Source: Pocillopora verrucosa (Eukaryota; Cnidaria; Anthozoa; Scleractinia; Pocilloporidae). Taken from it: a stretch of 64,000 bases of DNA. The translations under genes were made by a program, and so were the position numbers. The stretch spans positions 2,618,585 to 2,682,584 of the forward strand of contig NC_089313.1 of assembly GCF_036669915.1 (NCBI RefSeq), written 5' to 3'. The notes beneath the pieces are model-generated. The model saw only the letters and a list, made by a program, of their open reading frames with translations, had not been told where the DNA came from and did no database searches. Shown piece after piece: positions 11,867 through 29,550 of this stretch. The number at the start of each line of letters is the position of its first letter. Within the stretch, counting starts at the first letter, position 1.

Positions 11867-14117
11867 ATGGCCGCCATGATGGACACCTCCGAAACAAACT
11901 CACAAGGTACACTTAAAGTTAAGTTAACTTAAGTTGTTTACTCGAAATTTTCATCTTATATACTAATTTAAGACTTTTTTATTTTTTATGACAAAGAAAT
12001 TGAAGATCGGACACAGCTGAGGTTTCAAGTTGAGCTGGAGTTTGTGCAATGTCTGGCAAATCCTCATTATTTGAATTGTAAGTTTTCCTTTGTTAAACGA
12101 TATCTTTGTTTGCCTTTTCCCTAGCTTCTTGATCGTTGGTATCAAACCAGAAAGAAATGTTGGCAAAATTCATTCAAAATTTAGCGTAGATAATATATTT
12201 TGGGTACTTTTCTAGATCTTTGTCTATTATTCATTGAGAATCGAAGAGACTGCCGGTAGTTGCAACCTTGATTATTGTACCCGATTTGAGGCCATAATTG
12301 TATAGTTTCCAACCATTTCCTCAGACAAAAACGCCTCAAAAATCATACCCTTCCAGGCAAAGTGTATTTATTTCAGTGTTTGGCTTATGTAATTATTTGT
12401 ATTGGGGAGTATGTTACTCACCTTCTCAAGGGTGAAACAGAGCTCTCTAGTTGATTTACTGGCAAAGAGTAAGACGCCATGGGCATCTCCTACCTGGAAG
12501 GGTATGGGAGCATGCTCCCCCACAAAATTGGGAAAGAAAGGAGAAGAATTGTGGCTAAGATGAGCATTGCTTTATTCTGAGTGAGAAGTTCCATTGTTAA
12601 AACATGCTCTAAGTTAGTACGAAGGGAATCAGAAGTAAATTTGGAAGAATAAGTAATTTTTTAGGCACTTGAGCAGAAGTTTGTATCAGAAACCTTAAAT
12701 GTGAGAAGTGATGGCTTTAGTGAGAGAGCACAAGATTGAATTCCTTAGAGTGAATCTTGCTCTCATCGCATGAGACTAGAGAGCTCTGGGTGAAGATAGC
12801 ACTGAGTAATGGCTTTTTTAAATTCATCTTGGTCTAAACACCTCATGATTAGAATAAGAAATTTATTGAGTCATGTTTTCTAGCCTTCTTTGTGGTGTAG
12901 AGCTTCCCTTTTTTTAATCAAGTCATTGCTTAGGGTTGCCTTCATATATGAGAGGAGGGAAAAGAAAGTTGGGAGGTCCTCACACTATCTTGAATATAAT
13001 TTATTTTCTATCAGTCACTTCTGAGATCTTTTGCAGTTCTTGCTCAAAGAGGGTACTTTAAAGAACAGTCCTTCATTAACTATCTCAAATATCTGCTTTA
13101 TTGGAAGAAGCCAGAATATGCAAAATTTTTAAAGTAAGTGCTATTTAATGTAAAAGTTGTGGCAGTAAATAGTAGAGGTAGTGTTATTTTATTATAATAA
13201 TTCAGACTTGTGTTTACTGTCACGACGATATGTATCAACTTTGCCAAAATTGGTTTTGCCCCTTTATCGCATTCTGCTCTATTGGGTTACTAAGATAAAT
13301 AGTAATATTTTCAGTACCTTCCTCAGTGTTTTGTGAACCTGAAAAACAAATCCCTCAATTTAAGAAATATGTTATTTTTAACTTTTCTTGAGCATTGGAG
13401 GAAAAAAAGAATTTTACTTTGACCTTTTCCTTGACAAAAAAAATAACATCTTTATTTCTTTGATTGCTTTTTTCAAAATGTAACAAGTTTCCGAATATTT
13501 GTTAAACTTTTTATGCAATGACATCAGTAGACATATTCTCCATACTGCTCTCAACACATTTCCTAAGGTGCTGGCAAGGAGAATTTGTTCAACAATCATG
13601 AGCTTCTTGAGTTAGTTTTCATTTCCCTCATTCTCGGAACTTTCATATGTGATCCAGGGGTGATATTGTAAGGAGAATTTAGATGCTAGTCATTCTTAGG
13701 GGTTGAAGGGTTAAATAAAGATGTCATGGGTGTATTTTTTTTATGAGCAGAGGAGAAGAGAACTTTTCAAAATCCCTCAGATTCAGAATGTTTCTTTGTC
13801 TCATGCGGTCTAAGGAAAGGAATCAATTATAATATTTTTTTGTATCTGACGACTCTTCTCAAAATTTACCATCTTTCTCGTTTCTTTAAATCCCATTATT
13901 CTTTTTTCATACTCACAGATATCCCCAGTGTCTACATTTCCTTGAGCTGCTCCAATATGAACATTTTCGCAGAGAACTTGTAAACCCTGCCTGTGCAAAG
14001 TTCATTGATGAACAGCAAATTCTCCATTGGCAGTATTATTCCCGAAAAAGAATGAAGATCAATTTACCAAAATCATCAGGACAAACAGGTTCTACAACTG
14101 AGGGTGAACCATCGTGA
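11867..14117 (+). CDS. MED31: Mediator complex subunit 31
   Basis: MED31 is a small subunit of the Mediator middle module, linking activators to RNA polymerase II in the nucleus. Four exons: 11867-11906, 11997-12077, 13037-13133 and 13919-14117, giving 138 aa (human about 131). The core is nearly invariant across eukaryotes: LRFQVELEFVQCLANPHYLN, then YFKEQSFINYLKYLLYWKKP, then YPQCLHFLELLQYEHFR, with IDEQQILHWQYYSRKRM near the end. Exon 2 could instead start at 12006, which keeps the frame and drops three residues. The N-terminal Met-rich start ATGGCCGCCATGATGG is in good context. An AATAAA lies at 14736-14741. The 3' UTR has no recognisable element. Confidence 0.96.
13515..13714 (-). mobile_element. 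MITE family B, copy 3 (inverted)
   Basis: Contains CCTAAGGTGCTGGCAAGGAG and ends AGGGGTTGAAGGGTTAAA on the plus strand, the reverse of the usual family B order. It lies in MED31 intron 3. Confidence 0.78.
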
Positions 14118-15225
14118 ACAATGCAATGTAGAAAGAAATGTGGACAAGATGTGTCTCTAGAGATGGCAAAGAATTTAGAGATGTGGGTGGGCTCATTTAA
14201 CACCAAGCCAAGCAGTAGCTCCTTCACACTTTCTCTTTTTTTTAAAAATACCCTTTGCTTAGTTAATCGGCAGACATCAAGGTCTCTGTAATCTTGACAG
14301 GGTACAGTGTTGATTTTGGTGGATGCACAAGCAGGATTTTTTTTTTGACAAAGTTGTGCAATGTATAATTTGCTCAAGCTTGATCCTGACAACAACTTGG
14401 CAGAAGATCAGGAGACTGAATATTTTGGTGAGCCAATTGTATACTGTGCCAGCCACATTTTTTGGTACCCAAAAATTAGGGAGTATTCCAACCCCTAGCT
14501 CCACTGCCTATGGTATTTAGAACATGCTCTACAAGATCTCAAACCAGGAACACACAAGGCAACAGATTCAAACAGGAGAAAAAAAAACTAGTTCATTTGT
14601 AGCAGGTTTGATGGTCTGATCCATGTTAAGGAAGTAGTGTGGCTGTTTTCTCTATTCAGTTCTGTGAAAAATCAATGGAACCTTGTTTTATCACGAGTGA
14701 TATTAAATGTAACTATACTGTACTGTACATTTGTAAATAAAATATTGAGCGAAATTGTTTGATATCTTTGGTTACCTTCAGGTTGGTAATATTACTGTAG
14801 TATTCTTTCTTGTGATGGTTTAATCCCAGCCTCTGTCCCTAGCCTGTTTTGCTTCAGTCACAATACTGAAACATTGCAAAAAGAAGTCTCCCTCTCTTAA
14901 TTCCCTCTATGTACTAAGCCCCCTGCATTTGAAGAGTCAAACATCCCCTCTCTGTAAACTGGGAGTAGGGCCTCATCAGCAGATGTAAATTTAAACCAAA
15001 TGACCAATTTTTCTTGGGGACTGTATGAAATGTTAGAGAAAAGCCTGCTTTCACTCCCATGAGGGGGGAGAAAAAAACCACTTTGTGCTCCATAATCTTA
15101 AACAACCTGATGCAGTTTTGCCTTTTAGTCTTGTATACTGACTGCCGACATGGATGGTTTGTATATGAATAACATAAAGAACAAGCACATAAAACAATCA
15201 GAATCCCATAACTTGAATTAAAATA
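14118..15225. other. MED31 3' UTR and tail-to-tail spacer with CASTOR
   Basis: Contains the MED31 3' UTR with its AATAAA at 14736-14741, then about 480 bp up to the likely CASTOR polyadenylation signal. No exons or shared repeats are seen. Confidence 0.6.
14736..14741 (+). terminator. polyadenylation signal AATAAA of MED31
   Basis: AATAAA about 620 bp after the stop codon, the first clear hexamer downstream in this 3' region. Confidence 0.5.
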
Positions 15226-16529: not shown

Positions 16530-19500
16530 TCAATCCTTTAATACTTGTAGAGAACTAAGAAGTTCTATTGCCTTGACAGCTTCACTCTCAGGAACCTTGA
16601 AATTGAAAATAAAAACAAAGTCTTATCACAATCACAAGAAATTCGTCCTTCCACATTCTGGTAGTACATTTCCCAGGACCAATTTCCTGGTAAAGTTTTC
16701 TTGCAAATCTGAATTTCAAATTATTTTTGAAAAAGCCAAATTTAACTCCTGTGGAAACAATAAGCAGAAATTCCAATGCTTTAAAATAAAGAAGGGATAT
16801 TTTGGGAACACCACAAACAAATGCAAACCTTGCACTGAGTTACTGTGCTCCAAAAATAACCAAAGGCTCATTCAAAGATGCCACAGAAAATCAAGAGAAG
16901 ATTGTTCCAAAACAACTAGTTAAACAGGGGAAACTGTCTACCTTTGCCAGAGGAAAGTTACAAAACATAGGTGAATATTAAGCTAAAAGGAGAGGCTGTG
17001 CAAGATCACTGAAAATGGAAGATTCTCAAAATAGGAGGGCTACAAGCTATTTCCTGATAACTTTCAGCGATACTCAATAAGAAAATTCCTCACTGACCAC
17101 AGAGGACAGAAAGATAATCAACAAGTCCAACTGCAAAAACTCCTTGAAGAAATAATATTATTAACCAAGATAATATTACCAGCATTAACATAGGCAATGG
17201 TGATGAAAACCAAATTTGTTTCATGTTAGTGGATTCTCAACTCTTAGTCATGATGCAGATAAGATTAATTCATCAAAGGTACTAATTAAACGAATGATTA
17301 GCAATTAAAAGTACATACCAAAAGATGATCATAAAGGAAAGTACAGATGTAAGAAGTGCTACATGAAGCTTCAGTTAATGGTTCAGATAACTGAGCAACT
17401 ATGCCACTCTCCTCTAAAAGTAACACACAAACGGCTTCAAATTAATCCAGGGATGAATGGAAAGTAGCTGCGGGAAACTTGCCAAAAGTAGCTCTAAGAT
17501 TTTGATGGCAACTGAATTACAGGCACCTTTGTTATTTGACAACAAAGACAAGCCACTGATATTATCATTTGATAATATTCCAAAATGCTGGAGGCTGAAA
17601 ATCAATCAAAGATCCCTCAAGAGATAAGAGATAAGCCTCTTATTCACATACAAATTGCTTTGTTATCCTCCACAATTTTTTTCTTGGGGGTTTATCATTA
17701 AATAAAATTTGAGTTTTTATGCCCTGTTTTCAAGAAGGGAGATTCAACAATTTAACATTTCCTGGTGTAACTGTTGTTGCCAAGGAAAGCTTTAGTACTC
17801 TGTTCAAGTTTCCCACAACACCTCTATGACCCAGAGGTTTGTACATACCAGTGTATGACCAAGGCCATAAGTACTGATGTAATAAGTAGGCATTTGAACA
17901 TCTGCTAAAGGTTCTGCGATCTGGGCAGCAACGCCACTTTCATCTACACAACACACAACAGTGCAGTGTATCATTACATATTTATAAAGGAAGCCACTAA
18001 AGATTACAATGATAACAATAATACTAGCAATACTGATAATTATAAAAATAATAATAATATTAATAAAATTATGATCACTCTTTGGGTTTGCAGGCCACAC
18101 CTCTATTATGACTGATTTGTATCAAATGTTCACACCTTTCTAATAACCTTTGCAAAACAAGTGACTGAATAGGTGAGCGAATCAGTCAGTGAGTCAGTCA
18201 ATTTGTCATGCAGACCGTCATTCTGTAGGTCAGATGGTCAGTGAGTCAGTCAGCCAGTCTGAGTCAGTGAATCAGTGCACCACTATATCCACCTATCTGT
18301 TATCAGTTAGGCAGTCACCTAGATCAGCAATTTTCTTGTTTCTTATACAATGTCTGATGTCTGGTTGAGCCACATGCATCACAATGTCAGCCTGTTGAGT
18401 GTCTGTTTGTATGCACTAGTCTTAAGCTAACATCTTATTCACCAAATTTTCACTTGCTCATTTCAAATCAGAATAAAAAAAAGACAAAACTGACCAAATC
18501 CTAGGGGGTCATCTCCAACACGAATCATTCTCCATCCCTCATCATTGGTGTTTGTGTATAGTGAACCTTCAGGAAATCTAGATATTTAAAAAAAAAAGCA
18601 CATTGAGACACAAATTTTCTACAAATTCAAGCATATTGATCACAGACTATGTTACCATCTTGACAATTTTCTATCACTGCAGAAAAGCTATAAACTAAGG
18701 TATCAATTTTATCAATATTAGGTGATACTGGACAGTTTTGACTGTTAAATTACATTGTCAGCATGGAACCTTTCCTTGTTTCCAAAAGGTAACTGAATCT
18801 CAAGAGCCATTATTCACCAACCCTCAAACATAAAAGTCGGGAAAAAGAAGTAAAAATGACACATTGTCACTGGAAACATAGCCAGCTGAACATGACAACA
18901 ACAGGATTTTTATGTGTCAAAATGTGGTAGCCAAACTTCTGTTGTGCTGCACTAAACACAAAATCATAGTATGATTGACATAAAAACCCAGTTCAGTGGC
19001 CTTGTTACCATCCTGATGGTTTGTGTAGCTATTCTTTCAGTACAATTGGTTGCACTTTTCATGTCAACATCGAAAAATATAATTCATGTACAAACTGAAA
19101 ATAACTTTACAAAGCCAGAATTCTCAAAATGTAAGTACAAGCTAAGAGACAAAACATATACAAAATTTTCACCTTTACCTTGACAAAGCCTCACTGTCTA
19201 AAACTAATGAAATGTCTCCTTCAACAATTGAGATGTGAAAGAAAGGTTCATATCGTCCATCATCAGGTGTTCTGGGGTAAAACAAGCCATATAAATTATT
19301 GAAAATATTCAGTGATTCTACACATCAAAATGTCAAATAAGATATATGCATTTGTGCTATGATCAGCCAATTCATCAGGCTGTATTTCACTGAACATCCA
19401 CAAAATTAAAAGGGTAGTTGGAGTAGAGATCTTATAACTCTATTTGAACTCAGGGGTTTAATAAATACCTTACTGATCTTGTTTTCTTGGACTGTACTGT

Positions 19501-22500
19501 AAGTTACAGAGCCTTATTTTTTCGGCTGGGATTACTAGTGTGCATGCTTTGCCCTTGGGTCATAAATCCAAGCAAGAAAAACTCTCCTTCAACTTACAAC
19601 ATGGACTTTGAACTTGGTTAGTAAGAGGTATGTATCGACTCTTTTGGGGGAAGAAACTCTCAAAGAAGTAACTTGTCAAGAGAACAAAATTACCTGTGTA
19701 AGGTGGTGGATTCAATACAAAGTCTACACCTAGAGAGCCAGCTAATACACTTAAAAGCTAACATCTAATGACATATTTCATAGCAGTAGAAGAAAAACAA
19801 AAAAATTTACTCAGAATAGAACATCAGTTCAAGAATGGTGGTAGTGAGGCTTGGTAGCATTCGAAAATCTAGACTGGTCACATGAAATCTGTTCATTGGA
19901 CATGTGAATGGGTGAATAATTGGTCTGTGCTCATCTGCCAAACAAAGGAAAGAAAAAAAAACCAGTTACATATCAGTATGCAAAGCACACAAAAACCAAG
20001 TAGCTATAAAATCAAACTGAGGATATTACAGCATTAAAGAAAACCACTGGAAATTTACCTGCTTTCCTTTCATTCATTTGGTTCATTCCAACCAATCTAT
20101 CCTTAATAGAAAGAGTCACAGGTTCAAGTCCTGATCCACTGTCTTTAAAAATTTTATAATTTTCGGAAAGACACATTATGGCAGTTTCAAGATCTTTCTC
20201 TCTCACCTGACAGAAAAAAAGGAGTTCAACAAAATTAACAAAAAACCAAATTACAGATTAAATTTGTTTGCCCACCAACTCATTGTTTGAGGTGAGAAAA
20301 ATAATAATGAACATTTTAGCTCCCATGATCTGATTATTACTTCTCCCCTCTACCTGCTAGACATTTCCTTGTAAATTAGTCATGAGAAATTGGTGTTCGA
20401 TCAAGATAACATCTTCTACCTGATTAGTTTGAATATTCTCATTACATCTTTGCTGGATAATGTAAGGATATTATAAGGAGAAGATTTATGTTGATCACTT
20501 CTGGGAGTTAAATGGTTAAAAAGTGAAAGACTGCAAGCTCATTATTAATACCTGGATCAAACTTGTATCAATCAATCAATCAAAAAATTGTTCAATTAGG
20601 TTAATTAAACATCATTCATTCACAAATCCTGACATTCATTACAAAATCAAGGAACAGTTTTCCTCCTAAAAAAGAATAAATACAATTGATTGTATACTTA
20701 CAAAGAGTAAAAACAGTTTACCAGTTGAGGTGAACAAAGAGAACACTCTACACCAAATAATCATTAGTTTCAGTGAGAATGATACTTGACTAAAAAACCT
20801 ACCAAGATATAGTCTGACTGATAAGTTGAAATGACCAGAACTGAGATTTTAAAATCCGCCAAGGGAGAAATGACTGTTTTAACAATTCTACTGATTCCAG
20901 TCAGCTGATGGCTTCCATAGGCTCCTGCAGACACAGTCAGAACTCGCCAGATAAGGTCAGGCATGTCAATGCTCTCACTTTGTGGAAGCTCTGTCAACAA
21001 CAGCGGAGAGACTTAAGCCTTAGAGCCTTGTGAGGCGTGTAATAATAGACTTATTAGCACTTAATTAGACTTTTTGTTTATCATTTTATAAGAATGAAGT
21101 TATATTAATACAGTGTAACTTTGATTTCAGATGTAATGCAAACATAATAGGAACCTGCTGCATATCCTCTCATTAATGGCTAAAGTATTTGGGACCCACA
21201 TTGAAATAATGTTCTTTGACTTTATTTCATTACAAGTTCTTTCTCAATTTAGACCTTTCCCCAACCCAAACAGTTTTTTGCTCTAACCACACTGACAGAT
21301 AGACAAAACACAACTTTGTACTGCATACGGTAGTTGTCTAACTATGACAGTTTTGTCTAACTGTCATCGACTTCTTCAGGGAGTTTTACAAGTTAACACT
21401 AAATGCCTGTATTTATAAGCCATAGTTAGCAGCTGTATGGGGGCCGATGACCATAATGGCTTGGCCAGATATACCAACAGGAACAGGTGAAGTTGTGAAA
21501 AATTTGAAAATTTTTTTTGGGCAAGGTGAGAAAAATATTTGGGGGTCACAATTTTAGCTGAAACTGTGGCCCCCAAAAATACTTACTTCTATAGATTAGC
21601 TATTGTTACAGTTTTTCCTGTAACACACATTACAATCTAAGTCTGGCAGAACATTATTGATAACACTCTTAATACAGACATGACTGCAGTTTAACCTAGT
21701 CTTAAAGACCATAATCCTGCCTTGCCAAGATCTATGATTAAGTAGCCAGGAGAACCATTTATTCCTGTCATTGTAACATAAATCATGAAACAGTAACAGT
21801 GAAAACTTAAAAGAGCCTCTAATTTGCAGTTGCTTCCAGAACTTATCCCTAGTCTCAGAGAAAGACTTAAAGGAAGAACTGTTTCTAGCATATCTCATAA
21901 GCTCCCCTTTTACAAAAGCTTTCTTGTTGCTAGAAGGGTGAAACGACTCAAAAGGTATGTATGGTTTTAACTGAAACTGTAGCCCCCTAATATTTTTCTC
22001 ACCTTGTCCAAAAAAATTTTTCTCACCTTGTCCAAAAAAATTTTTCAAATTTTTCACAACTTCTCCTTTTCCTGTTCAAATGTCCGGCCAAGCCTTTATG
22101 GTCATTGGCCCCCGTATAGCCGCTAACTATGGCTTATAATTACAGGCGTTTAGCATTAACTTGTAAAACTCCTGAAGAAGTCTATGACAGTTAGATGAAA
22201 TGTGACGGCAAATAAAGAAGTTTTACAATTACTGTTTGCAGAGTGCGCTCTCTAGTTTAGTTTAACTAGTTTAGTTAAAAAAAAAAAATTATACAACAAA
22301 GTTATTGTAAGAAAAGGAAACCCTGAATTTTGTAGAGAACTGTTGTCTTTTTATTTTCACACTGATACATCCAAATGGGTAAGTGACAGGTAATTTTTGC
22401 TGAAAATTTAAAATCAAAGTCTGCATGCTTTGATTCTCTGATTTGAGCCTGATATTGTTCTTCAGGGCTTATTCAAAGGTAGATAAAAACATACCAGTGC

Positions 22501-25500: not shown

Positions 25501-26602
25501 ACAGGAAAAAAATTCACTTCCATAAAATAAACAGAAGGGATATTTCTTAAGAGTGTTCCAATTTACCTTTTTGGTGCTTCTATAGAAAAACAAATTATAC
25601 TCAGGCAAATACCACCTAATTTCAACGACTTTGAATATGAAAATGAATGTATTGCACACAGTTAGGATTAATAAATTCATCGATAGAATTTGTATGGGGT
25701 GAGGTTTTCAAAGTCACGTCCGGTATTCAATCTCGAAAGAAAAACATAAAATAGGAAACTTAATCTTTAGTTTCCACTCTGTAGGAATCTGCTCGGTCAC
25801 TGCATCAAATTTGGCCCTCACACTATCAAGAGATACAAGTGTATAATTATGCAATTCGTCCTTGCTGTGTACGCATGCGGCACTCAATATCAATTATTTT
25901 ACACTTCACAAGTACATTTGCAAAAGCAGTCTGTAATCAAAGGAAACAGACTTTCTTTTGAGCCTCAGTGTTGTGCTCCTTGTAGTGATACATGATCCCC
26001 TTGTTTCTCGCATGATCGCATTGTATACAAACAGCATATTTCTTAGTAATTACCTTTGCAAAGATCATCCTCCACGATTATGGTGTAACCATCTCTGGTC
26101 TCCGTAAAACTGAAAAACTTAGGTCTGTTGAAAGCGTAAAGGAGAATAAAACACAATAAATGAGTTTGTTATTTAATTTAAAATCACACCAGAAACCATA
26201 AGTTTACGCTGGCAAAACCAAACAAAATATGTCTCAGTAAAACACATGGCAGTCACCCTTGATCAAATTACAAATACACCGGTAGGACGTGACGCGCAAA
26301 GAATCTCACAAGATTGTGCAATGATGAGCGCTTCATCAAAACTATGACCATTCTGTGAATAAAACTACGATGATCTTGTGATGAATGGAAAATAACGTTA
26401 AAGTTTTTACACAGTTACACAGGAGTTAAGTTCTCCGCATGGACCGCGCTAAAATTTGAACTTACCTTGATCGAGGTAGCAACGAAATTTTTATTAGCGC
26501 GTGAGTGTATAAAGAAATTGCATCTTTCTTAATGTTGGAGACGCGAAGCTTGTGCTCCAAAATGTGAAGTTCCGATGAGTGCCCCAAATCTCCATTCATC
26601 AT
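16530..26602 (-). CDS. CASTOR: CASTOR-family cytosolic arginine sensor for mTORC1
   Basis: In vertebrates CASTOR1/2 (GATSL3/GATSL2) bind arginine and relieve inhibition of GATOR2, which activates mTORC1. Exons (minus): 26602-26466, 26124-26054, 20990-20803, 20206-20059, 19934-19811, 19271-19179, 18577-18495, then 17943-17849 or 17413-17319, then 16595-16530. Either form gives 334 aa (human 329). The protein shows the tandem ACT-domain layout: ELHILEHKLRV at the start, KFFSFTETRDGYT, ISPLADFKISVLVISTYQSD, HPFTCPMNRFHVTSLD, WRMIRVGDDPLGF. Ser119 matches human arginine-binding Ser111. ATG codons at 26602 and 26599 are both possible starts. Exon 8 is duplicated (see the separate entries). Intron 2 is 5 kb and holds a retroelement fragment. 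The gene is divergent from SBDS. One ancestral CASTOR gene is expected, so 1 or 2 is not assigned. Confidence 0.93.
17319..17413 (-). CDS. CASTOR: CASTOR alternative exon 8b (arginine-site Asp retained)
   Basis: A second exon-8 copy, exactly 95 bp, with consensus-like acceptor (TTTTAG) and donor (GTATGT), in the intron between exon 8a and exon 9. It encodes EESGIVAQLSEPL through YICTFLYDHLL, ending before Val of exon 9. It aligns without gaps to exon 8a and to human CASTOR (FDECGIVAQ ... STFNFDHALV). It keeps T-F-x-x-D, equivalent to human Thr300, Phe301 and Asp304. Entry phase is 1 and exit phase is 0. If spliced after exon 8a it reads AGG AGA GTG GCA TAG, a stop. Confidence 0.85.
17849..17943 (-). 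CDS. CASTOR: CASTOR alternative exon 8a (Asp replaced by Gly)
   Basis: The first exon-8 copy, 95 bp, with acceptor TGTAG and donor GTATGT. It encodes DESGVAAQIAEPLADVQ through YISTYGLGHTL. It aligns residue for residue with exon 8b but has T-Y-x-x-G where 8b and human CASTOR1 have T-F-x-x-D (Gly310 against human Asp304). Splicing of exon 7 to exon 8a or 8b and on to exon 9 keeps the frame either way. Skipping both gives GGT TCC TGA at the exon 7/9 junction. Confidence 0.85.
18160..18315. repeat. degenerate GTCAGT-type tandem repeat
   Basis: Repeated CAGTCAGTGAGTCAGTCA-like units in the intron between CASTOR exons 7 and 8a. A simple-sequence tract. Confidence 0.7.
19459..19634. mobile_element. 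foldback/MITE family D, copy 1
   Basis: Left end TAATAAATACCTTACTGATC with TACTGTAAGTTACAG; right end AACTTACAACATGGAC and GGTTAGTAAGAGGTATGTAT. The ends are inverted relative to each other. Related copies lie near 38544 and 46449. Confidence 0.7.
20315..20520 (-). mobile_element. MITE family C, copy 2 (inverted)
   Basis: Plus strand begins TTAGCTCCCATGATCTGATT, contains TTTCCTTGTAAATTAGTCAT and ends CTGGGAGTTAAATGGTTAA. It lies in CASTOR intron 3. Confidence 0.78.
20991..26053 (-). other. CASTOR intron 2 (5.06 kb)
   Basis: The longest intron of the gene. Apart from the inverted-repeat retroelement fragment at 21350-22210, it is AT-rich with no supported exon. A 140-codon minus-strand frame at 25258-25680 has no recognisable pattern and is taken as chance. 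Confidence 0.6.
21350..22210 (-). mobile_element. retroelement fragment flanked by long inverted repeats
   Basis: Arms of roughly 220-250 bp at 21350-21580 and 21960-22210 are inverted copies. For example TATAAGCCATAGTTAGCAGC on the left pairs with GCCGCTAACTATGGCTTATA on the right. Between them a minus-strand frame (about 22057-21596, 153 codons) carries PYIPFESFHP, KGELMRYARNSS and RDKFWKQLQIRG. These resemble the C-terminal side of a reverse transcriptase, as in Penelope-like and related retroelements; Penelope-like elements can have inverted terminal repeats. No catalytic RT residues are present. It is a truncated, presumably dead copy. The right arm also has a 26-bp unit in tandem. Confidence 0.6.
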
Positions 26603-27403
26603 TGTTATAAGATACAAAAAATCCACAGAAAAACGCGCGTAAATTGAAGCAGAGGTGTCTCGTACCCTTCCTACTATTTACGACTTCCCGCGGTTGGCAA
26701 CGTGATTCGTCGACTCGGCTCACTCACATGGAGAAACTGCTCCGTGGTTGGCATTTCCTGTCAACTCATCTTTTGTGAACAGGATCAATTCCGGTTCAAA
26801 ATATCTCCGGTTATAAAAATCGAAATAACAACAACTTCACCGCGCTAGTTGGTCAAGTAAACAACGTGACTGCAATCCAGCAATACCCTCTTTCCGGTTT
26901 TTCCCGATCACGAAGGCTTTGCACGTGTAGCAAGACTTTGACAATTGAACAAGATACCGGCGCACTTCCTTCAACGGAAAACCTCAATTATTGAACGAAA
27001 ACAAATTATTGTAAGCTCATTCAATAGCGATTCAAGCAGTATGCAAACTCACGTTATAGATAATTAACGCTCAAAGTAATTATGCTAATGTAGAGCTGTG
27101 GAGTCGGGACAACATTGAAGCGTGGTTACAAGGCAGTACACAAAAACATGACTGAGTAGGGTCCTGTTAGGTCGCAAAACATCATAGAAGTCCTTATTTT
27201 AAATTGAAGCTGTAATTTTCAATACTTATCTGAGGTAATTCCTCAGGTATAGTTTTTCATCAATTCAGCGGAATAATTTTGTTTTGGAAAGTTCAAAGTG
27301 GACTGTCGCGACAATATTTGTCTCTCTATCCCTCCCTCAGTGGAAGCTACTTTAGTCAGTGAAAGGTTTCGTCTTTAATCAAACTGAAAATAGTTGATAC
27401 AAA
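26603..27403. promoter_or_regulatory. divergent intergenic region between CASTOR and SBDS
   Basis: 800 bp between head-to-head start codons. It should hold both promoters and 5' UTRs. No MITEs are seen inside, and no TATA box is clear. Shared regulation is possible but not shown. Confidence 0.5.
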
Positions 27404-29550
27404 ATGTCGATTTTTACGCCAACCAATCAAGTAAAATTAACAAATGTAGCGGTGGTAAGGTTGAAGAAATCTGGAAAACGTTTTGAGATCGCTTGCTACA
27501 AGAACAAAGTTATGTCATGGCGAAATAAAGTGTAAGTACCTGTACCTTGAAAAGAATTTCATTCAGTGCTGACATTGCAATTTAGTGATTGAGTTTTAAA
27601 CAATGAAATATGCTCAAATTCATGTTACCAGTACGTGATTGAGGAACACCAACATATAATGGCTTCAACTCGGATTTTAATAATTTCTCGTGCAAAATTT
27701 AAAGCATAGTTCAAAACAACCCTGCTAGGAAAGGGTAGCCGAAACAAACTTATTATTCATACCGCTCAGAACACTATTATTTCTGGATGGAAAGTCATGA
27801 TGGTAACATTTCAGTGTCTTAATGTACATTTCTTTCTTGTAACAAATGCAAACCTTGAGACATGAGAAGGAGTCGTACAAACCCCTCAGACTCCTTAGAA
27901 TCTGGCTTCCTTTCTTTAAGCTCTGTACACCCCATTTTCACTACGAATTATGTAGTTCCACATCTACTTTAGCATAATAATTTAACCCCTCTTATTGGAA
28001 GACTACCAAAAAGGATTTTTTCCCTTCTCTTTGCACAGGGAGAAGGACATTGATGAAGTTCTTCAAACACATACAGTATTTACAAATGTTTCTAAGGGAC
28101 AGGTAGCTAAAAATGATGATTTGTCTCGAGCATTTGGTACCACAGATCAGACAGAAATTTGTCTGCAGGTGAGCAATATTTATCTCCAATTTAAGTTCCT
28201 TACAATTTTTCCTACTTGTCCTAATTCAATTCAAAAGGATGTGGTAAAATATTGGTGTGCATTGTGAACAGTCATATCAAAAGCAGACCTGACATAAATG
28301 TTAAATAAGTAAATTTGGTGATGTCAAACAATTATGCCAAAATTCACATTTTGCATCTGTTATATAGATTTTAGCAAAAGGAGAGCTACAGGTATCTGAG
28401 AAGGAAAGAAACACACAACTGGAATCAATGTTCAGAGACATTGCAACTATTGTGGCTGACAAATGTGTGAACCCAGAGACAAAAAGACCTTATCCAGTAG
28501 GTCTGATAGAAAGAGCTATGAAAGATATTCATTATTCAGTTATTCCAACCAGAACCACTAAACAACAGGTATGGGAAAATTTTTGATTTGTTTATAACAA
28601 AGACAGGATTTCATTGCAGTGGGGAGGGGGGAGGGGGTTATCTTTGCATCATCATGGTTTACCATTTTCTATAAATCTTTCCTAATTTTTCAGAGGGTAG
28701 TAAAGGGGGAGAATCCTCATCCTGTTTTATGCATTAATTTTGGAAATTAAAATTCATGTGTCATGGATATGAAATGAAAAACTGTGAATCTCTCTTTTTG
28801 TACACCAGGTTTCAGGAAAATCTTGAGGTTTTTATGAAATAGAAAAAAACTCATAGGTCAGGTATATTTCAGGAGGCAAATCACACCTCTTGGTGGTTCA
28901 TAAATTCGCAGATCACTCTAACTTGTCTCTCTGTAAAATTCTCACTCCACATATTAATTATGGCCTTTATCACAGGCTCTAGAAGTCATTAAACAACTCA
29001 AGGAGAGCATGGAGATTGAACGAGCCCAAATGCGCCTCAGGTTGATCATACCAAGTCGTGAGGCCAAGAAGGTTCATGAGAAACTGAGGCCACACATATC
29101 GACTGTTGAATCTGAGGATTGGCAAGGCGGGGACTTGGAAATGGTAAGGAAGACTGAAGAGTGTGATGAATCAAATGAAAAATTCATGTTTACAAATCAG
29201 TGCTGCTAACTGGTAAAGAATAAACTCATTTATTAAATAAACTGCACTGTATGACATGGATTTCCAGCCCTGAGAAAAGCTGTAACTGCACTGTAAAACT
29301 ACAATAATTTTTTTTACATGTGTTTGATTTTGCCAACTAGCTGCTGACATGTCACTTGCCTTTCTCATCACTCTGTCATAATAAACATGTTCTCCAATTT
29401 AATTTTTGTTCTCTATCCTAGGTTTGTCTCATAGATCCTGGTTGTTACAGGATAATTGATGAAACTCTCAGGGCTGAAACTAGGGGACGAGGAACATTGG
29501 AAATGATCAGTCTAAAGGATATAGAGGAAGGAGATGAAAGACTAGAATGA
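27404..29550 (+). CDS. SBDS: SBDS ribosome maturation protein
   Basis: SBDS works with the GTPase EFL1 to release eIF6 from late 60S subunits, allowing subunit joining. Five exons: 27404-27531, 28039-28168, 28368-28568, 28976-29143 and 29422-29550, giving 251 aa (human 250). The start [20 protein letters not shown] is close to the vertebrate N-terminus. The FYSH domain covers about residues 1-95, the middle helical domain ([20 protein letters not shown]) about 110-170, and the C-terminal ferredoxin-like domain begins near [17 protein letters not shown]. All junctions are GT/AG and in frame. AATAAA at 29595-29600 lies 45 bp after the stop. It is divergent from CASTOR and convergent with POP5, only 307 bp apart. 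Confidence 0.97.

Follow-up and report, generated by a model that had tools for sequence, protein, structure and literature searches.

The CASTOR gene of the coral Pocillopora verrucosa (Scleractinia, Hexacorallia) carries two versions of exon 8, here called 8a and 8b; both are intact, both lie in one gene, and each alone gives a CASTOR protein. Splicing is likely to pick in this way between an arginine-responsive form (8b) and a form without the guanidinium anchor of the arginine pocket (8a), the functional difference between the two being deduced from mutants of the human protein. The window, i.e. the whole stretch of 64,000 nucleotides that was analysed, holds this gene on its minus strand, with the coding part running from 26602 down to 16530:

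26466..26602, minus strand: exon 1, with the start codon at 26602-26600; spliced with 8b, the gene encodes a protein equal to the database protein P0001
26054..26124, minus strand: exon 2, from spliced translation
20803..20990, minus strand: exon 3, used in both isoforms; codes for an ACT2 part that has Ser111-Val112-Leu113 (human numbering) and the Tyr118/Gln119/Asp121 patch
20059..20206, minus strand: exon 4, from spliced translation
19811..19934, minus strand: exon 5, from spliced translation
19179..19271, minus strand: exon 6, with Asp at the position of human Tyr236
18495..18577, minus strand: exon 7, ending in P-L-G-F (human 272-275), donor GTCAGT
17849..17943, minus strand: exon 8a, DESGVAAQIAEPLADVQMPTYYISTYGLGHTL, with Val280, Ala281, Tyr301 and Gly304; transcribed before 8b
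17414..17848, minus strand: intron between 8a and 8b, 435 nt
17319..17413, minus strand: exon 8b, EESGIVAQLSEPLTEASCSTSYICTFLYDHLL, keeping Ile280, Val281, Thr300, Phe301 and Asp304
16530..16595, minus strand: exon 9, coding part and stop codon, from spliced translation
17469..17490, no strand assigned: inverted-repeat arm close to the 8b acceptor, with 77% complementarity to 17796-17817
17796..17817, no strand assigned: inverted-repeat arm near the 8a donor, pairing with 17469-17490

Two neighbours were noticed on the plus strand. An SBDS-like gene stands head to head with CASTOR (about 27400-29500, extent judged by eye; the Pfam PF01172 match is on its first exon only), and a Med31-like gene lies downstream (about 12000-14120, Pfam PF05669, exons joined by eye).

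Exons 8a and 8b are 95 nt long each and align without gaps, with 58 of 95 nucleotides and 14 of 32 encoded residues identical. Their splice sites are intact, with an AG ahead of each and donors that both start GTATGTAC. Exon 7 ends with one base of a codon and exon 9 begins a codon, so that 95 nt fits for either 8a or 8b; exons 1-7 followed by 8a and 9, or by 8b and 9, encode a CASTOR of 334 amino acids. Inclusion of both leads to a stop at codon 5 of 8b and omission of both to a stop at codon 3. The earlier note had described 95-bp tandem exons, 435 bp apart, that align gaplessly and each link exons 7 and 9 in frame, and had predicted stops whenever both or neither is used; alignment and spliced translation bear this out, and mutual exclusivity of the pair holds at the level of the reading frame. 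Adjacent and homologous, equal in length and phase and each in frame alone, the two exons bear the marks of tandem exons.

A chance resemblance between the two is ruled out by scans of the surrounding DNA. When 8a was compared with every 95-nt placement of the minus strand between 15300 and 26700, the mean identity was 24.7 (sd 4.3) and the best placement besides 8a itself and 8b had 44 identities. The same minus-strand region (26700-15300) contains nine open segments of 95 nt bounded by AG and GT; the 8a/8b pair scores 74 (BLOSUM62), and the remaining segments score -2 or less against 8a or 8b. The whole window has 91 segments of this kind (43 plus, 48 minus), the highest score against 8a outside the pair being 9. 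A tblastn search of the window for further copies of exon 8 returned none, apart from a weak match (E 0.052 and 0.43) to the part of exon 3 that corresponds to exon 8. A search for cnidarian genomic DNA among bacterial and archaeal genome contigs and among viral contigs turned up no relative. Substitution rates between 8a and 8b (NG86; dN 0.46, dS 0.92) come from copies too diverged for these values to carry weight.

Residues are numbered as in human CASTOR1, after PMC5020642 and PMC5187391 and our alignments; exon 8 then covers residues 276-307, most of the ligand-binding part of ACT4. Ser111, Val112, Leu113, Leu273, Gly274 and Phe275 are encoded by common exons and are kept in coral CASTOR. 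Exon 8b contributes Glu277, Gly279, Ile280, Val281, Thr300, Phe301, Tyr303 and Asp304, and exon 8a Glu277, Gly279, Val280, Ala281, Thr300, Tyr301, Leu303 and Gly304. The pocket set Ser111, Leu273, Phe275, Ile280, Val281, Thr300, Phe301 and Asp304 is complete in P0001 (8b), and the 8a form departs from it at 280, 281, 301 and 304. The 8b form thus resembles human CASTOR1 in keeping Ser111, Val112, Leu113, Leu273-Phe275, Glu277, Gly279-Val281, Thr300, Phe301 and Asp304; the coral gene differs from the human one in having a second exon version with Gly304 and in having Asp, not Tyr, at residue 236. In the 300-304 motif, T-Y-G-L-G in 8a and T-F-L-Y-D in 8b stand against human T300-F-N-F-D304, which upholds the assignment of T-F-x-x-D to 8b and T-Y-x-x-G to 8a in the earlier note; the loss of arginine binding on mutation of Asp304, which that note also stated, is in print.

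The human mutants are taken from excerpts of PMC5187391 and PMC5020642. In these, D304A and D304L leave no detectable arginine binding, D304A retains more GATOR2 in pull-downs, V281A raises the Kd from 5.5 to 25.6 uM, and F303A has a Kd of 17.6 uM; the residues introduced at 304 are Ala and Leu in the human protein, not Gly in a coral background. The 8b form reads FKI for human HHV at 108-110 and Leu for Asn at 302, positions that an excerpt of PMC5187391 suggests as the cause of arginine non-binding in CASTOR2, so that arginine binding by 8b is a prediction. A designed counterpart of 8a is the S111A/D304A double mutant, the apo-locked CASTOR1 of a preprint (2025) that describes the cryo-EM structure of CASTOR1-GATOR2 (excerpted from PMC12136191): 8a naturally changes one of the two designed residues, but keeps Ser111 and alters further pocket residues.

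Both forms are modelled to fold as CASTOR1, with four ACT domains. The Pfam families Castor1_N, CASTOR1_ACT-like and ACT_7 all score above their cut-offs in P0001 (8b) and in P0006 and P0007 (8a). AlphaFold2 models have mean pLDDT values of 87.0 (P0001) and 86.6 (P0006), with ten-residue means over the exon-8 part of 91-95 and 85-96, respectively. The best PDB match of both models is arginine-bound human CASTOR1 (5gt7_A; TM by target 0.92 each), and the resemblance to human CASTOR1 extends over the full length, at 42-43% identity in the best structural matches; this match informs on fold and not on ligand.

According to excerpts of PMC12136191, human CASTOR1 holds GATOR2 without arginine, and with arginine a loop closes over the Mios-binding surface, causing release. 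By analogy, a single coral transcript would use either 8a or 8b, and the 8b product, with its canonical arginine pocket, should release GATOR2 once arginine binds. The 8a form has Ala281 and Tyr301 and no Asp304 carboxylate, the partner of the guanidinium group, so that the usual arginine response is not expected of it. Because the Tyr118/Gln119/Asp121 part of the Mios-binding patch is present in coral CASTOR and common to both forms, 8a could hold GATOR2 regardless of arginine. It could act alone or in mixed dimers, and a higher 8a:8b ratio would then lower the arginine response of TORC1. The dimer contact is placed at ACT1 and ACT3 in the excerpted PMC5020642, and at ACT1 and ACT4 in the later preprint, also excerpted (PMC12136191); mixed 8a/8b dimers are expected with the former, and exon choice could also affect dimerisation with the latter.

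The fourth residue of the patch counts against GATOR2 holding by 8a, and makes GATOR2 binding a prediction only, since Tyr236 is not kept in the aligned cnidarian rows. Its mutation breaks GATOR2 binding in the human protein, as excerpted from PMC12136191. Every aligned cnidarian row with a residue at 236 has Asp or Glu, the four invertebrate bilaterian rows have Asp or Lys, and Tyr is confined to the 11 vertebrate or vertebrate-like rows. Judged from these rows, the CASTOR of invertebrates may touch Mios in another way, if it does so at all, and the known Mios contact through Tyr236 may be a vertebrate trait.

How one exon is chosen over the other may be hinted at by the intron between them. 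Its predicted fold has a z of -2.87, with none of 100 shuffles as stable, and it is the lowest of 12 slices of 435 nt along the gene (z -2.98, followed by -1.95 and -1.67, at 40 shuffles each). In the predicted fold the two ends of the intron, at the 8a donor and at the 8b acceptor, come together, and this might weakly help to block joining of 8a to 8b; predicted from the DNA of one species, the fold is a lead only. Short folds around three splice sites showed nothing unusual (z 0.93, -0.81 and -1.00). An intron of 435 nt would make simple crowding an unlikely cause of exclusion. Since 95 is not divisible by three, mis-spliced products are condemned by their frame. The exon 7 donor GTCAGT (18489-18494), directly ahead of the alternative pair, is unusual in a gene whose other donors start GTA, and a weak donor at this place could favour regulated exon choice.

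Protein records were searched with two full-length queries and one regional query, which gave 85, 62 and 11 overlapping proteins, P0001-P0112 in total. Both types were found. In P. verrucosa itself, P0001, named cytosolic arginine sensor for mTORC1 subunit 1 isoform X2, equals the 334-aa 8b form letter for letter; P0007, from P. damicornis, has an identical 8a peptide in a gene model without exon 5. Records labelled isoform X are computed gene models. In Porites lutea, isoform X3 (P0011) is of the 8a type and X4 (P0010) of the 8b type; both have 305 aa and both are without the part coded by exon 6. These two show no difference outside exon 8 and differ at 18 of 32 residues inside it (comparison block of 39 columns, 7 of them gaps). 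A further pair, P0002 (8b) and P0005 (8a), is identical at 286 of 300 positions outside exon 8 and at 15 of 32 inside (7 gap columns removed); both are full-length intron-free frames, on contigs of 4 and 1.5 kb, respectively, that look like transcripts. In sea anemones, the Actinia tenebrosa row is of the 8a type and the Nematostella vectensis row of the 8b type, the two types thus coming from different species.

Sixty of the 112 proteins were aligned, the other 52 being, by name and length, mostly vertebrate CASTOR2 or CASTOR1 or fragments. Residue 304 is Asp in 31 rows, Gly in 22 and Glu in 7. Gly304 occurs in the ten 8a-type rows among the 15 hexacoral rows aligned and in all seven octocoral rows; of the 12 medusozoan-like rows, five have Gly304 and seven Glu304. 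Asp304 is found in five hexacoral 8b-type rows, 15 bilaterian rows and 11 rows that group with the medusozoan-like ones (support 99, significant). Two octocoral rows were assigned by name and five by tree place, as were the hexacoral rows P0002, P0005, P0008 and P0014; the medusozoan-like label rests on tree place and on what we take to be the naming habits of EukProt. As judged from these rows, the Gly304 type is not a local oddity of Pocillopora. The database holds one representative per 90% cluster and the 8a and 8b forms differ at 18 of 334 residues, which mostly hides such pairs, so that the lack of the 8b type among octocoral rows is weak evidence. The 11-row Asp304 CASTOR clade (P0034, P0036, P0037, P0041, P0042, P0046, P0052 and P0096-P0099) groups with medusozoan-like Gly304 and Glu304 rows. 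P0034 (Asp) and P0092 (Gly) are named after one scheme, so that separate Asp and Gly genes may coexist in some medusozoans, a possible parallel to the hexacoral exon pair.

The 8a exon is highly conserved. Among eight 8a-type rows its mean pairwise identity is 0.92, against 0.67-0.89 for the other parts, the value of 0.67, for exon 5, being lowered by the P0007 gene model; in the seven stony-coral-like rows left after removal of Actinia it is 0.95, against 0.72-0.94, exons 1-2 (0.94) coming close to it. For exon 8b the identity is 0.88 in three stony-coral-like rows (other parts 0.69-0.94) and 0.67 in all five rows (other parts 0.50-0.80). In the eight 8a rows, which come from stony corals and one sea anemone, all eight pocket positions are invariant, compared with 17 of the 24 remaining positions of the exon; for the five 8b rows the counts are 3 of 8 and 9 of 24 (P0011 and P0015 excluded from these counts). 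This conservation and the invariant pocket indicate that 8a is not decaying. The invariance of the 8a pocket is more in line with a ligand site that is still kept than with a dead one, and is the main support for a different reading, in which the 8a form senses another ligand and splicing selects the nutrient read by the pathway. In 8a, the pocket residues that bind the backbone (Ser111, Val112, Glu277, Gly279) are kept, and the side-chain end (Val280, Ala281, Tyr301, Leu303, Gly304) would have been rebuilt for another amino acid or metabolite; Gly304 as the sole residue in the seven octocoral rows, and its presence in five of the 12 medusozoan-like ones, would be odd for a broken site. Against this, the sample behind 8/8 versus 17/24 is small, the residues could be preserved for structural reasons alone, no ligand is indicated, and 90% cluster representatives may conceal further isoforms. 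We regard this reading as possible but rather unlikely. Equally tentative, and if anything a shade more doubtful, is its fuller version, in which 8b would be an arginine sensor, 8a a sensor of another small molecule, and the Gly304 pocket a ligand type that is old in cnidarians and that hexacorals have retained beside the arginine type in one gene.

Preference goes to the choice between an arginine-responsive 8b form and an 8a form without the guanidinium anchor. This supposes that both exons are in use, and we think it improbable that one of them is a relic or noise, left by an old duplication without regulated use, a possibility raised when the pair was first noticed. The 8b exon is indeed the rarer (five of the 15 aligned hexacoral rows) and the less conserved of the two. 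Nevertheless, both exons are open with intact sites, both types recur across lineages and in the transcript-like frames P0005 and P0002, and all five 8b rows keep Asp304, Gly279 and Val281; conservation, too, speaks against a relic.

The history of the pair was examined by separating exon 8 from the rest of the protein. In a tree from which exon 8 was left out (54 of 60 aligned rows; P0007, P0011, P0015, P0032, P0058 and P0103 omitted), 8a and 8b rows interleave by lineage, P0005 pairing with P0002 and P0006 with P0010 (99 each, significant). In a tree of exon 8 only (47 of the 60 rows, 32 columns; P0011, P0015, P0027, P0032, P0038, P0041, P0046, P0058, P0088, P0089, P0101, P0103 and P0104 omitted), the eight 8a-type rows stand together, Actinia included (96, significant), as do the five 8b-type rows, Nematostella included (69, not significant); with weak support, 8b is placed beside bilaterian rows and 8a among octocoral and medusozoan-like rows. 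A single clade of all 13 8a and 8b rows was not rejected by the AU test (p 0.277). As exon 8 sorts by type and the rest of the protein by lineage, the trees point to one old duplicated exon and not to two genes. Since both types occur in anemones, in different species, and in stony corals, the exon duplication is most likely older than the split between the two groups. That the 8a and 8b proteins come from two paralogous loci, as vertebrate CASTOR1 and CASTOR2 come from separate genes and as some medusozoan-like rows may derive from two, is rejected by this comparison of exon 8 with the rest of the gene and is very improbable, given that 8a and 8b sit within this single gene with 435 nt between them, that the Porites lutea isoforms are identical outside exon 8, that the types do not separate in the tree without it, and that the 188-aa frame P0086, from an ENA contig, spans 8a and the intron up to the final bases before 8b (matched by eye).

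Vertebrate CASTOR1 and CASTOR2 also provide two sensor versions with unlike arginine responses, but as separate genes, and the aligned vertebrate rows keep Asp304. A CASTOR1-CASTOR2 heterodimer was obtained through co-expression (excerpted from PMC5020642). The PDB entry 9kpg (2026) is titled human CASTOR2-arginine, which conflicts with the lack of binding in the 2016 papers, and CASTOR2 may not be simply non-binding. Among the matches listed from the open-access literature (titles and abstract openings, most subscription papers lying outside), none describes a CASTOR exon pair. The sole match holding both CASTOR1 and "mutually exclusive exon", PMC9892061, concerns in its excerpts intron retention in rat Castor1; the retrieved part of PMC10957897 (2024), on TORC1 gaining new sensors, has 0 occurrences of cnidaria or Nematostella, and that of PMC12400658 has CASTOR only in its reference list. 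The isoforms are already in public protein records, so that the sequences themselves are not new. Taken together, the gene presents what appears to be a new instance of mutually exclusive exons in the CASTOR family, none having been found described in the literature searched.

Mutually exclusive exons in PKM1/PKM2 change how a metabolic protein responds to a small-molecule ligand, but PKM is an enzyme of an unrelated family and not a TORC1 sensor. The CASTOR exon pair would have an unusually pointed effect, on a single ligand contact, and the natural Gly304 type would be a ready-made probe of the coupling between pocket and GATOR2 surface. In the usual description, the binding constants of the sensors set the amino-acid input to TORC1, and corals and their algae exchange nitrogen compounds. 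If the proposed switch is true, exchanging the exon for the ligand-binding part of the arginine pocket would allow cells to adjust or change their nutrient sensitivity with a single gene.
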